A DNA stretch of 13,070 nt from Gemmatimonadota bacterium (lineage in GTDB: Bacteria > Latescibacterota > UBA2968 > UBA8231): positions 10,689-23,758 of the forward strand of contig PATE01000089.1 of NCBI GenBank assembly GCA_002712305.1, in the 5' to 3' direction. Under the pieces are notes generated by a model. That model had not been told where the DNA came from. It ran no database searches and saw nothing but the letters and a program-made list of their open reading frames with translations. The translations under genes and the position numbers were made by a program. Shown here piece after piece: positions 7,714 to 11,820 of the stretch. The stretch's first letter is position 1. Each line of letters opens with the position of its first letter.

Positions 7714-8964
7714 TCACGACGCGGCAGCCATCGCCACGTCGAGTTCCTTCTCCTTCTTGCCTTCCTGAATCGCCGTCAGACCGCCCGTGAACACCTCAAG
7801 GTGGGCGCGTGTCTCGGTCAGTTCCTGGTCCTTGTGAGGTTCAAGGGTTTCGACGATCTCCGTCATGTCCCGACGGGCCGCCAGACAGCGCACGCCTTCG
7901 CTCAACATGGCGTCATCGAGATCGGCGATGAGCGGCTCCAACGCTGCCAATCCCTTTCGACGTGTCAACTCCGACAGGTCAACCAGGAGATTCGTCAACA
8001 GATCCAGATTCAGCGTCGATGCGGGGGCTACCCGCAACTGAGCCTGTAGCTCCTCGATTGACGCTCCCGTCGGTTCGATGACCACGTCAAAGTCCACTCG
8101 ATAGACGGCGACGAGCTTGTGCGCCACGATCCTCGGATTGTCCCTACCGCAGATGGCGACGATACCTTCGAGAATCACCAACTGTCGATTCTCGAAGTGC
8201 TGAAGTATCGCTCGGATCCGGGTCTTCAGCAGGTCTTCCAACAACCGGGGTTCGGCGCCATCGACGGCGAGTCGCAGGGCTTCCTGAACGAACACATCAC
8301 CAGCCACCTTGGCCGCGACTTCCAGGGACATGATGCCATTCTCTCGGGCTCGCCGAGAGAGACCGTATATGAAATCGTGGATCTCCTGCAATTTCAGTTC
8401 TGCAAGCGGGCGCTTGATTACCCCGGCGATCGCCGGTTCGAGATCGACCTCTTCGGGGGGCTCATAGGGCGGCGTCTCGTTCCCGAGAGGCCAGCCGATC
8501 ACGTCATCGCGCCCGAGAAGGCGGACCTGTGCGAGGATTCGCTCCTGAACCTCGAGGATTTCTTCCTCCGGCATGGGCCCAAGGAAGACCATCTCCTCTG
8601 TGATGAACCGCCGGACCCGCGCCGACATAACGTTGAGCATGCGTCGTTTGACGTCGTCGGAGGCCAGCTTGAGGGCGATGACGAGATCTTTCTGGTGGGT
8701 CTCGCGCAGCAGGCGCCGAGTGTCCTCATCGGACAGGGCAGAAAGCTGCTCAAACTCGAGTTCTGCGGCGGCGGCCAGGGCCGGCCATTCGCGGTATCCG
8801 TATTCGCGAGCCAGAACGTGCTGCACCTCCATCAACGTGACATCGTCGACGGTCGAATCCTCGCTCAAGCGCGGGAGGCCCTCGCGGATCTGTTCAGTGG
8901 TGGCGGGGTCGCCGTCCTGCAGTGCCCGGTGGAACTGCTTGGCCTCCTGCTTGAGGTGGCGCAA
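7714..8964 (-). CDS. Soluble fusion: ankyrin-associated N-domain, FliG C-terminal-like domain, two MotA cytoplasmic-like repeats
   Basis: A 416-residue reading with no signal peptide or membrane helix. Residues 1-70 match the N-terminal domain often found before ankyrin repeats (LKQEAKQ opening, LAREYGYREWPAL end). Residues 77-157 match the FliG C-terminal torque domain without gaps, as I recall the E. coli sequence: Lys99, Arg116, Glu123 and Glu124 fall at K264, R281, D288 and D289; R297 is lost (Pro132). Residues 193-285 resemble the MotA cytoplasmic region (ENGIMSLE, VDGAEPRLLEDLLKTRI, LEGIVAI, DNPRIVAHKL) without its four membrane helices. Residues 322-402 repeat it more weakly (RKGLAALE). 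MotA R90 and E98 equivalents are Arg207/Glu215 and Arg335/Glu343. TTG 8964 is only the last in-frame start-like codon; family-like sequence (LPHRPSL) continues upstream, so the true start is probably near 8997. Function unknown; a scaffold or signalling role is a guess. Confidence 0.8.
   Translation of the reverse strand: MRHLKQEAKQFHRALQDGDPATTEQIREGLPRLSEDSTVDDVTLMEVQHVLAREYGYREWPALAAAAELEFEQLSALSDEDTRRLLRETHQKDLVIALKLASDDVKRRMLNVMSARVRRFITEEMVFLGPMPEEEILEVQERILAQVRLLGRDDVIGWPLGNETPPYEPPEEVDLEPAIAGVIKRPLAELKLQEIHDFIYGLSRRARENGIMSLEVAAKVAGDVFVQEALRLAVDGAEPRLLEDLLKTRIRAILQHFENRQLVILEGIVAICGRDNPRIVAHKLVAVYRVDFDVVIEPTGASIEELQAQLRVAPASTLNLDLLTNLLVDLSELTRRKGLAALEPLIADLDDAMLSEGVRCLAARRDMTEIVETLEPHKDQELTETRAHLEVFTGGLTAIQEGKKEKELDVAMAAAS
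7759..8001 (-). other. MotA cytoplasmic-like repeat B within the 7714-8964 gene
   Basis: Encodes residues 322-402. It can be laid over repeat A: an LLVDLSELTRRKGLAALE opening with Arg335 and Glu343 eight apart, then a helix ending in DMTEIVETLE and a GGLTAIQEG block like the MotA C-terminal EGILSIQ-type motif. It is more diverged than repeat A, which implies an old internal duplication. Confidence 0.6.
8110..8388 (-). other. MotA cytoplasmic-like repeat A within the 7714-8964 gene
   Basis: Encodes residues 193-285. The RENGIMSLE block keeps the Arg and Glu, eight apart, of MotA R90 and E98. It also has the MotA-like LRLAVDGAEP and C-terminal EGIVAI and DNPRIV blocks, directly joined where MotA would have two membrane helices. 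Confidence 0.75.
8494..8736 (-). other. FliG C-terminal-like domain within the 7714-8964 gene
   Basis: Encodes residues 77-157. It aligns to the FliG torque-helix domain through ALK, NVMSAR, an acidic pair and LGP, all at identical spacing to E. coli FliG as I recall it. FliG normally forms the flagellar switch ring and contacts MotA; here it is embedded in a non-flagellar context. Confidence 0.75.
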
Positions 8965-9061
8965 AGACGGCCGATGCGGAAGATCGCGTGTGGAATTAGA
9001 GTCCCCTCTTTCGTGGTGCCCGATGTCCGCTGCATCAAGGGCAGAAAGAAGGTGACAATTG

Positions 9062-9102
9062 GGTACTGCAGTGGAGGCGGCCTGTGGCCTTTCCGCGGAC
9101 GT
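9062..9102 (-). promoter_or_regulatory. Upstream block shared with the ankyrin gene, copy 1
   Basis: Lies 98-138 nt upstream of TTG 8964. On the + strand it reads GGTACTGCAGTG, a 19-nt gap, then CCGCGGACGT. The first part matches copy 2 (11708-11752) at 10 of 12 bases and the last part at 10 of 10. Both copies sit at similar distances upstream of - strand genes that share an N-terminal domain. It may be a common promoter or operator, or a trace of gene duplication. No clear -35/-10 pair is visible in it. Confidence 0.35.
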
Positions 9103-9153
9103 AGAGGCGCCCTCCCGCGCCGTGATCCTAATGTAGTCCGCCTTCGCGCAGAA

Positions 9154-10158
9154 TCAACCTACTCGATACTTCTCGACGACCTCCATGTTGAGCGTGACAC
9201 CAAGACCCGGCCCTTCGGGAACCATGAAGTGTCCATCCTTCAACCCCAACCCCTCCTGCAGGACATCAGTCACACGCACAAAAGGCAACTCGTCACAGGG
9301 CAGTGTCGCATTCGGGATCGTGGACTGCAGATGGACAGAGTACGCCGCCTTCACACCCATACACAGCCCGCCGAGCTGCACCCAGCATGGCACATCCGCT
9401 GCCGCCGCCACTGCGGCGGCGTCCCGGATTTCCAGGGCCGATCCACTCAGATTCACATAGTCGATGCACTCCATCTTGAGCGCATTCACCACCATCGTCG
9501 AAGACTGAGCATGAAGAGCGATGGGGATGAAGGTCTTTTCACGCAGCAGTCGAAACCACTCGTAGTGCGTCTTGAGCACGGGATTCTCGAAATTGTGCAC
9601 CGTGCCGAAGTGCTCCAATTTGTGCGCCAGTCTGGCGGCAACATGCACCTCACCGAACTTCTGGTTTGGGTCCAGGCCAACCGAGTAGTCCGAACCGACC
9701 GCTTCCTTCATAAGTCGGACGGTCTCGACCACATTCCACGGACGTGCCTTCAGCTTGTGATTGGTGAAACCGAGACGGGCCCCCACCTCTGCCTCGGCGG
9801 CGGTTTCCTCTGGTTCCATCGGCCGTGACCAGTATGACACGGGCACGCGGTCTCGCACCTGCTTGCCGAAGAACCGGTGCAGGGGCAGACCTGCCGCCTG
9901 ACCGGCGATGTCGAGCAGGGCACACTCGAAGGGGTCCTCTTCTGTGAAAGGATCGATCGACAGTGGATCGCTGCCGATCAGACGCTGCTTCGCTTCCTCG
10001 AAGTCGGGCGGAAAACCGTGAGCCTCGCCGAGACCGATGAGACCTTCGTCGGTGATCACCCGACAGAGGGTCAGGTCGAAGATCTTCGGCATGTACTTCG
10101 CAATGGCGGGAATCGGCGGGATATCAACCTGGAACAGCTCAATCTCTTGAATCTTCAT
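9154..10158 (-). CDS. Enolase-superfamily enzyme, mandelate racemase/muconate lactonizing type
   Basis: A 334-residue protein. The capping domain begins MKIQEIELFQVDIPP. The barrel has a KxK motif (Lys135, Lys137) on strand 2, Asp163 and Asn165 (LDPNQ) on strand 3, and Glu191 (FENP) on strand 4. The closing block is PEGPGLGV (314-321). On strand 5, where a Glu or Asp usually supplies the third magnesium ligand, the sequence is IALHAQSS (213-220), with His216 instead. The family abstracts the alpha-proton of a carboxylate to racemise, dehydrate or cycloisomerise sugar acids and related compounds; the substrate is unknown. The start is ATG 10156-10158, with GGGAG at 10166-10170 seven nt upstream. 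Codons further 5' lack homology. It lies 71 nt downstream of the ankyrin gene on the same strand. Confidence 0.88.
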   Translation of the reverse strand: MKIQEIELFQVDIPPIPAIAKYMPKIFDLTLCRVITDEGLIGLGEAHGFPPDFEEAKQRLIGSDPLSIDPFTEEDPFECALLDIAGQAAGLPLHRFFGKQVRDRVPVSYWSRPMEPEETAAEAEVGARLGFTNHKLKARPWNVVETVRLMKEAVGSDYSVGLDPNQKFGEVHVAARLAHKLEHFGTVHNFENPVLKTHYEWFRLLREKTFIPIALHAQSSTMVVNALKMECIDYVNLSGSALEIRDAAAVAAAADVPCWVQLGGLCMGVKAAYSVHLQSTIPNATLPCDELPFVRVTDVLQEGLGLKDGHFMVPEGPGLGVTLNMEVVEKYRVG

Positions 10159-10229: not shown

Positions 10230-11622
10230 TCAGGGTTCGTGGGACTCCATCAGGGCAGCGATCTGGTCGAGGCCCCCGTGGCGCGCCCAACTTGTGGCCG
10301 GCGCGTTGTGCATGGCATCTGGCACGGTTGGATCACCGCCGTGGGCGAGGACCCATTCGACGATGGGCAGACGCTCCTGCTCCACGTCGGTCTTGTCCCG
10401 CGTTTCACCGAAGGAGGGCCCTGCCCGCCGGTGCAGGACGGTGGAATCGACATCGGTTCCGCGGACGAGCGCGTCTGCCCGGGCTCCATGTGCCAGCAAC
10501 CACTCTGCCGCTTCGAGTCGACCATGCGGCAAGCGTATAGAAGAGCCTGGCCCAGCACCACGTCGTCGGTTCGTTCGGCACGCACACTCGGCTCCCCACG
10601 GGCGACGACCGACCGCGTGTAGGGATCGGCGAGCCCCTGGTCGGGCAGCAGACCGGCGGGACCTACGAAGGTCTCCATCACATCGATACGACCGAGCCCC
10701 GCTGCGAATCGCAGATCGAGGCGCGCGCCTGCGTTGGCGAGCACTTCGCAGCACTCGGTGAAGCCGAAGAGCATCGGATAGGCGAGCATCACACCGGGCG
10801 CGGGGGCTTCGCTGTCGACGCCACCGGCGATCAGCGACTCGACGACGCGTGGACAGTTAAAACTGACAGCACCCTCCAACGGCTGCCCGTCGAGGTTGGG
10901 ATCAGCGCCGGCGGCAAGCAGATCGGCGGCGATCTCTCCCTCGTTGCCCTTGCGGTTGGTGCCGTTGAATACCGCCTCAGACACATCGAACAAGGGAATC
11001 GAGTCGTTCGGGGTACCGGGACTATCCCCTGCCCAATTCGGCTCGAAGCCGGCAACCCAGCGAGGATTCGCCACCTCGGGTGTCTTGGCCAGACATCGAG
11101 CGCACTGTGTCATGTTCGCCCTCACGTATCGCGACAATCAGATCTCTCACCATCGGATCGAGACGGACATAGCTCTCATACTTGCTCCACAGCGCGTAAC
11201 CTTCGCTGTTGGCGATCACAAGCCGCGCGTCGGGTGCGGACAGTTCGGTGTCACCATCGCTATAGTCGACAAACCGCTTTCGGTCGTGAACCGGTTCGAG
11301 CAGTCGCTTCCGCCCCGCCGTGTCTGCTCCGGCAAACTGTTTCCTGAGGTCATCGACACGTGCTTCGACGGATTCGATCTCCTGGACGGAGCGCTGCAGC
11401 TGGGGCCAGCTGCTAAACTGATAGGCGCGAGCTCAGGGCGAGTTGTACGTCGGAGAGTGAGGCGTCGACCGCGTCGTCGGGCGATGTGCCTGAATACTTG
11501 GGATGGTGCTCAACGAGCAGACCGAGAGCTGACGAATCGCCCTTGCCGCAGGCCTTGTGTAGATCCTTGGCCTGCTTGCGCAACTGTTCGTAGTTGGGAT
11601 GGAACGGGATCGAAAACGACAT
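10230..11622 (-). pseudogene. Ankyrin-repeat protein with N-terminal ankyrin-associated domain, broken by three frameshifts
   Basis: A perfect AAGGAGG (11631-11637) precedes ATG 11620-11622, so the start is firm. The protein then jumps frame three times. The first segment ends DVQLAL near 11437. Skipping one A continues it as ARAYQFSSWPQL, the expected end of the N-domain. That frame runs to VRSM near 11092, after which family-like sequence resumes as LAKTPEVANPRWV in another frame. The third break is near 10527, where LLYACR should join HGRLEAAEWLLAHG and one C appears missing. Ankyrin-like helical pairs (AADLLAAGADPNL, WVLAHGGDPTVPDA) lie in the second half. The restored product would be about 460 residues. 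No segment is a full protein alone. It is either a decayed gene or one hit by indel errors. Ankyrin proteins mediate protein contacts; no partner is evident. Confidence 0.75.
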
Positions 11623-11690
11623 GGCACAACCCTCCTTCGAGATCGTGCCCGGCGTCCGCGCTTTCGGGCGAAGGAAAGTTGTCGATGTGA

Positions 11691-11708
11691 CGGCGTCGTC
11701 AGACGCCG
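11691..11708. other. 7-bp stem, 4-nt loop hairpin in the divergent region
   Basis: CGGCGTC (11691-11697) pairs with GACGCCG (11702-11708) around GTCA. It lies in the 5' leader side of the ankyrin gene, about 70 nt upstream of its start, next to the shared upstream block. It may act in the leader RNA or as an operator half-site pair. Function is not shown. Confidence 0.35.
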
Positions 11709-11752
11709 GTGCTACAGTGAGCGGAGGTGGGCTCAACCCTGCCCGCGGACGT
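11708..11752 (-). promoter_or_regulatory. Upstream block shared with the FliG/MotA-like gene, copy 2
   Basis: Lies 86-130 nt upstream of the ankyrin gene start. On the + strand it reads GGTGCTACAGTG, a 23-nt gap, then CCGCGGACGT. It corresponds to copy 1 at 9062-9102 with a 4-nt longer spacer. On the - strand a TTGAGC (11731-11736) could be a -35 element, but no good -10 follows. Confidence 0.35.
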
Positions 11753-11820
11753 GGGCGCTTCCTTCCAAGCGCAGCGCAACGATAGCAACGCTTCAGGACG
11801 GCCACAAGATGAATCTGCTC

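Follow-up and report, generated by a model that had tools for sequence, protein, structure and literature searches.

A predicted soluble FliG_C-MotA fusion protein encoded behind a structured leader RNA in a Latescibacterota genome

The stretch of DNA analyzed here (the window) spans 13,070 nucleotides of contig PATE01000089.1, and its minus strand carries a gene at positions 7714 to 8964 (416 amino acids from a TTG, by ORF calling) whose product joins the torque domain of the flagellar rotor protein FliG to two cytoplasmic units of the stator protein MotA. From the amino terminus, the protein comprises a four-helix N-domain (residues 1 to 68; positions 8761 to 8964), the FliG_C torque domain with Lys99, Arg116, Glu123, and Glu124 (residues 70 to 155; 8500 to 8757), a first MotA unit with Arg207 and Glu215 (residues 188 to 290; 8095 to 8403), and a second with Arg335 and Glu343 (residues 303 to 416; 7717 to 8058), all on the minus strand. 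A structured 5′ leader RNA of the gene lies at 8994 to 9132 on the same strand (covariance model score, 103 bits). Farther upstream, also on the minus strand, is an N-domain/ankyrin-type gene of the same leader family with a broken frame (10250 to 11622), and 5′ of it is a second copy of the leader (11620 to 11782; 73.5 bits). In that gene, the frame changes near 11440 and again farther downstream, as in a pseudogene or a sequence with assembly errors.

That FliG_C and two MotA cytoplasmic regions occur in one protein was the central claim of the original prediction, made from the DNA letters, and it is borne out by Pfam, NCBIfam, PDB sequences, and the AlphaFold2 fold. The MotA regions were drawn too short in that prediction, in that both units include the C-terminal tail, and residues 1 to 68 form a domain of their own. 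FliG_C was the sole Pfam family to match the protein at an E value of ≤10 (E = 2.4e-18, 66.8 bits, cutoff 23.3), which rules out the HEAT or ankyrin helices named beforehand as the competing fold. At the same threshold, the FliF- and FliM-binding domains FliG_N and FliG_M were absent, as was the c-di-GMP-binding PilZ domain. NCBIfam models for MotA PRK08124 (E = 1.4e-16, residues 169 to 255), MotP (E = 6.8e-16, residues 190 to 261), and FliG TIGR00207 (E = 4.1e-14) were matched, and MotA PRK08456, strongest at residues 316 to 379, provided the second MotA match; these scores are far under the whole-protein cutoffs, as expected for fragments. A search of PDB sequences returned FliG_C 1qc7 (E = 1.2e-9), FliG 1lkv, and MotA 8ucs/6ysf (E of ∼2e-7).

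The AlphaFold2 model, computed as a single chain with 36 aligned sequences taken from related loci, has high local confidence (mean pLDDT, 90.8), but how the domains pack against one another is not firmly set by a pTM of 0.65. The chain may fold on itself or build rings or filaments, as the original prediction suggested. Overlaid with VIA-align, model residues 64 to 159 match FliG_C with a Z score of 17.3 (0.8 Å over 94 amino acids), and residues 188 to 416 match the MotA cytoplasmic region with a Z score of 14.4 over 153 amino acids, so that the predicted structure does overlay on both proteins. No transmembrane (TM) helix was predicted, again as anticipated, and all four TM helices of MotA are missing. 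Alignment against MotA sequences places the TM2-TM3 loop of each unit straight onto the C-terminal tail, with TM3-TM4 deleted and one continuous helix standing in their place. The helices of copy 1 (192 to 209, 211 to 220, 224 to 234, 239 to 272, and 277 to 288) follow the same order as those of copy 2 (320 to 337, 339 to 348, 352 to 362, 367 to 400, and 405 to 415), and the MotA tail motif GDNPRIVxHKL is present in copy 1. The idea that both torque domains have been reused is upheld by profiles, fold, and relatives alike.

An ortholog that is 74% identical occurs in a genome labeled Gemmatimonadetes bacterium SI074_bin69 at NCBI. Compared with it, the window gene has a dN/dS of ∼0.12 over 414 codons, which indicates that the fusion is under purifying selection. 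Profiles, fold, and dN/dS together rule out a chance or low-complexity resemblance to FliG and MotA, and an assembly join between the two parts is ruled out by the repetition of the domain order in the ortholog and in a dozen paralogs. A defense system was also considered and rejected, the fusion protein having no PADLOC match.

The paralogs' upstream regions can be aligned to each other, and the ortholog's 5′ region contains a part conserved no less than the coding region. A covariance model built from 13 leaders matched ∼100 sites across 24 of the 60 genomes searched, several non-flagellated ones among them, with the start codon at a constant position at the leader's end across the family. 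In the window, a long-range pseudoknot is formed by GUCCGC (9095 to 9100, minus strand; supported by sequence and by covariation in helix 3) and GCGGAC (9025 to 9030, minus strand; supported by sequence and covariation). The Shine-Dalgarno (SD) strand GAAAGAGGG (9004 to 9012, minus strand) is paired within the leader, with the anti-SD strand CCUUCUUUC (9044 to 9052, minus strand) opposite it; across leaders, this helix averages 9.8 bp with its own partner versus 8.4 bp with swapped partners. Pairing holds in 94.5% of cells in 84 sequences, compared with 38 to 46% when strands are slid, and in 21 of the 24 pairs, both pseudoknots included, each partner has changed. Nested helices guided the fitting of the alignment, which biases their counts, but the pseudoknots lie outside the model and are unaffected.

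In Rfam searches of six sources, no leader matched a family at gathering score, and the only match elsewhere was a tRNA; the window leader had no match at an E value of ≤10, and five other leader loci had none at ≤1. A known riboswitch was rejected as the leader's identity on this lack of an Rfam match. No exact match to the leader pattern was found in the viruses of IMG/VR. Comparative evidence strongly supports a structured RNA that contains two pseudoknots, sequesters the SD, and lacks an Rfam entry. It resembles riboswitch-type SD-sequestering leaders in being a compact pseudoknotted RNA directly 5′ of a start codon with anti-SD/SD pairing, but it differs from them in having no Rfam match and in preceding one protein family rather than functionally diverse genes. 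Action through protein autoregulation is possible, and a shared leader of this kind makes its trigger a testable question.

In the window copy, AAT (8995 to 8997, minus strand) occupies the position of the ortholog's ATG, although the leader, pseudoknot, and SD are intact. The next in-frame start is the TTG at 8964, ∼40 bases from the SD, and the first residues of the N-domain are lost along with the ATG; the reading frame itself stays open upstream as far as a stop codon at 9154 to 9156. As read from this assembly, the start codon is lost or uncertain. Given the AAT in place of the ATG and the distance of the TTG from the SD, translation of this copy may be inefficient; alternatively, the sequence may be misassembled at this point. 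Such damage is what would be expected if the gene were nonfunctional or decaying, a by-product of domain shuffling within a family rich in repeats, as would be the frame-broken neighbor, the truncation of several relatives, and the diversity and patchy spread of the fusions. We regard decay as very unlikely, given selection at the level of dN/dS noted above, a 416-codon open frame, a confidently modeled fold (pLDDT, 91), and a leader that retains its SD and pseudoknot.

What unites the family behind the leader is the N-domain, which occurs in 58 of the 79 readable ORFs downstream of it. The others are mostly broken or very short frames, together with four FliG_C-only genes and one unrelated family; in three of the four cases, the FliG_C-only gene behind the leader is followed by an N-N-FliG_C gene. 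The N-domain showed only subthreshold likeness to the start of Glyoxalase_8 and no convincing match among PDB sequences, and its four-helix model matched nothing above a Z score of 2.7 among the solved chains compared. It is common to ankyrin, sigma-54 AAA, FliM, and other fusions, and the modules found behind leader and N-domain are ankyrin repeats, sigma-54 AAA, methyltransferase, Clp_N, PhyH, PcfJ-like, and FliM. The FliM form, leader followed by N-domain and FliM domain, occurs at three loci (L134:1500-2555, minus strand; L135:1596-2444, minus strand; and L139:361-1416, plus strand).

Relatives carry flagellar rotor and stator domains in many other arrangements. An N-FliG_C×2-MotA×2 architecture was found at L011/L056 and FliG_C alone at L007, and a FliG_C-MotA fusion without an N-domain lies just 3′ of the apparent end of a histidine-kinase gene (L012:423-1103, plus strand). 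Membrane-bound MotA-FliG_C fusions occur at L051:5881-7011 and L073:1306-2565 (both minus strand); L060:8925-9536 (minus strand) belongs with these membrane MotA-FliG_C and single-TM deleted forms, and a single-TM remnant of the membrane form is present in the window's own genome (L006). In one product, three FliG_C domains and a single cytoplasmic MotA unit are attached to an ECF sigma factor (L069:936-2963, plus strand), and in another, a two-component-regulator propeller bearing an inserted FliG_C is combined with a SpoIIE phosphatase (L066:2548-6678, minus strand). FliG_M/FliG_C-like proteins have a predicted TM helix (L067:1560-3269, plus strand), in one case along with a FecR domain (L068:1867-3600, minus strand). 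FliG_N and FliG_M are joined to a histidine kinase and a receiver domain (L187:2-2542, minus strand), an FGE-sulfatase domain is joined to a complete FliG (L189:1022-3112, minus strand), and a single 935-amino-acid ORF unites FliM, FliN, and a complete FliG, the entire C-ring in one chain (L065:890-3694, plus strand).

No flagellar gene lies within the window, as had been noted beforehand, but that observation misleads for the genome as a whole (4.77 Mb in 146 contigs), which encodes at least three distinct FliG genes, MotA/ExbB-type genes, and eight flagellin matches; the FliG_C of the fusion is 51% identical to the FliG_C of its own genome. Among 64 genomes of the phylum, the relatives' sequences being mostly draft metagenome assemblies, soluble FliG_C-MotA fusions were found in eight genomes of two families, six from the window's family (G000, G001, G005, G007, G009, and G019) and two from another (G036 and G042). 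Flagellin and FliG_M occurred in exactly the same 20 of 30 tested genomes, and these included all eight with the fusion. The suggestion of a system unconnected with flagella is thus not borne out: among the genomes examined, soluble fusions are confined to flagellated ones. Within the window's family, 6 of the 15 flagellated genomes and none of the 10 non-flagellated ones carry the fusion (one-sided P = 0.028, uncorrected for phylogeny), and most flagellated relatives are without it. One contig scan beyond the phylum matched only the ortholog's named record, a result that does not imply absence elsewhere. In a tree of FliG_C domains, the fusions are scattered and a fusion of family f3 (L069) falls partly beside FliGs of f3; the domain is too short for proof, and the pattern hints at separate recruitment of FliG_C into fusions.

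How far the rotor-stator interface has been kept was assessed by alignment, with residues of the window protein placed against FliG of Thermotoga maritima and of Escherichia coli in what we take to be the E. coli numbering. Lys99, Arg116, Glu123, and Glu124 align with FliG K264, R281, D288, and D289, and Arg207/Glu215 and Arg335/Glu343 align with MotA R90/E98, so the residue mapping first proposed was correct. Its corollary, that the interface charges are kept, holds for the window copy except at the fifth torque residue, R297, which is Pro (four of five kept); across the family, only R281 and R90 are really conserved. Among FliG_C domains of soluble fusions, the R281 equivalent is Arg in 17 of 18, that of D289 is Glu or Asp in 14 of 18, and that of D288 is acidic in 11 of 18; the K264 equivalent is Lys in 3 of 17, and the R297 equivalent is never Arg (n = 18). 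Both K264 and R297 are invariant in 26 canonical FliG domains from the genomes compared. On the MotA side, 13 of the 15 first copies and all 10 second copies have Arg at the R90 equivalent, and Glu or Asp stands at the E98 equivalent in 11 of 15 first copies but in only 2 of 10 second ones. Ranked by entropy over 220 positions in 12 fusions, the R90 equivalent is 5th and that of R281 is 9th, with the acidic partners middling. R281 and D289 are mostly lost in the MotA-less FliG_C-only and N-N-FliG_C proteins (L007, L050, L071, and L083). Because R281 and R90 are conserved in the fusions and R281 and D289 are mostly lost where MotA is missing, the interface appears to be partly kept where both partners occur, to a lesser degree than originally claimed.

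In E. coli, R90 of MotA contacts D288/D289 of FliG, and E98 contacts R281 (PMC12505986). Relative to FliG, the window protein shares the FliG_C (PF01706) fold and torque helix and the R281, D288, and D289 equivalents, but it lacks FliG_N and FliG_M, is joined to MotA, and has Pro at R297. Relative to MotA, it shares the cytoplasmic fold, the helix order, the R90/E98 equivalents, and the tail motif, but it has two tandem units, no TM helices, and no MotB-type partner. The closest laboratory counterpart is an engineered Clostridium sporogenes MotA(1-262)-FliG(239-333) fusion (PDB 8UCS), in which FliG_C sits between two adjacent MotA subunits (PMC11302681). Both have FliG_C and MotA in one chain, but that construct is man-made and membrane bound, whereas here a natural, soluble protein has FliG_C followed by two MotA units. 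The membrane fusions of relatives (L051 and L073) have the construct's domain order and membrane form and are its natural counterparts. We found no description of a soluble FliG_C-MotA fusion in the literature searched, in line with the earlier statement that no such system was known; these were open-licence texts only, and their silence is weak evidence of novelty. The architecture is undescribed as far as searched, and it recurs within a family.

We propose, at about even odds (a probability of roughly 0.5, on sequence and modeling grounds), that the fusion regulates the cell's own flagellar motor by docking on it through molecular mimicry. The cell's MotA would hold the fusion's FliG_C part as if it were the rotor, and the fusion's MotA parts would hold the cell's FliG as the stator does. 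With no partner available, FliG_C could be enclosed between the fusion's own two MotA units, a self-closed state that is possible in view of the way two neighboring MotA subunits hold FliG_C between them; by analogy with 8UCS, two MotA units per FliG_C could in principle allow such a grip within one chain. The protein might then be a brake or clutch that can be switched, or a decoy for stator or rotor, and its synthesis would be gated at translation by the pseudoknotted leader that sequesters the SD site. We infer each of these steps (docking, self-closure, braking or declutching, and translational gating) for the cell. YcgR contacts MotA and FliG, and YcgR and MotL are YcgR-type brake or clutch proteins (PMC10140304 and PMC12713396); the likeness is one of proposed mode only, that of a soluble protein at the MotA-FliG interface, and the window protein, with no PilZ, would rely on mimicry instead of on c-di-GMP.

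Counted in favor of docking are the domains and their folds, the dN/dS, the flagellated-only occurrence, the conservation of R281 and R90, the frequent loss of R281 and D289 in relatives that have no MotA unit, the presence of FliM on the N-domain, and the covariation of the leader, as well as the persistence of the leader RNA, unlike the fusion, in several non-flagellated genomes and the natural membrane fusions that repeat a construct with docked FliG_C. Against it, affinity for the native partners may have changed through the loss of K264 and R297 and the poor retention of E98, and R281 and R90 may be conserved for structural reasons. Also weighing against it are the distance of the gene from any flagellar gene in the window, its absence from most flagellated relatives, the modest statistical strength of the genome association, and the lost ATG. 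A single function is also less securely inferred because FliG_C is fused to many unrelated modules in the lineage.

The same facts can be read without any motor contact, the affinity of FliG_C for MotA serving as a latch or polymerizing contact within a self-contained interaction or scaffold module. Both partners belong to the same chain, two MotA units to each FliG_C would suit the stoichiometry of a pincer, FliG_C does occur inside signaling proteins of the class (L069, L066, and L068), and R281 and R90 have stayed where other rotor residues have drifted. We nevertheless consider a scaffold unlikely, since fusions restricted to flagellated genomes and an N-domain that also carries FliM better fit a link to the motor, and the pTM of the model provides no firm packing between domains. 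A mechanosensing or assembly-checkpoint reporter, which would bind free stators or unfinished C-rings and signal through the N-domain with no braking, is suggested by relatives that join motor domains to regulators (L069, L187, and L068) and by the sigma-54 AAA modules of other N-domain proteins; it strikes us as quite unlikely for the window protein, which has no output domain and whose N-domain model lacks a clear match to a known structure.

Under the docking proposal, the fusion may represent a new way for cells to brake, declutch, or sense flagella, and a natural soluble protein bearing both torque-contact sides offers a membrane-free route to study how MotA grips FliG. More broadly and more tentatively, with the balance leaning against it, this flagellated lineage might possess a whole regulon of soluble proteins that mimic motor parts (FliG_C, MotA, and FliM on one N-domain) under a shared new leader; they would engage the motor and link regulation to its state, and the protein studied here would be the rotor-stator contact in single-chain miniature. 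As a minor observation on the assemblies, near-identical FliG regions (L002 and L003) lie close to the ends of two contigs of one genome (C81 and C142 of G000) and are probably a single gene assembled twice.
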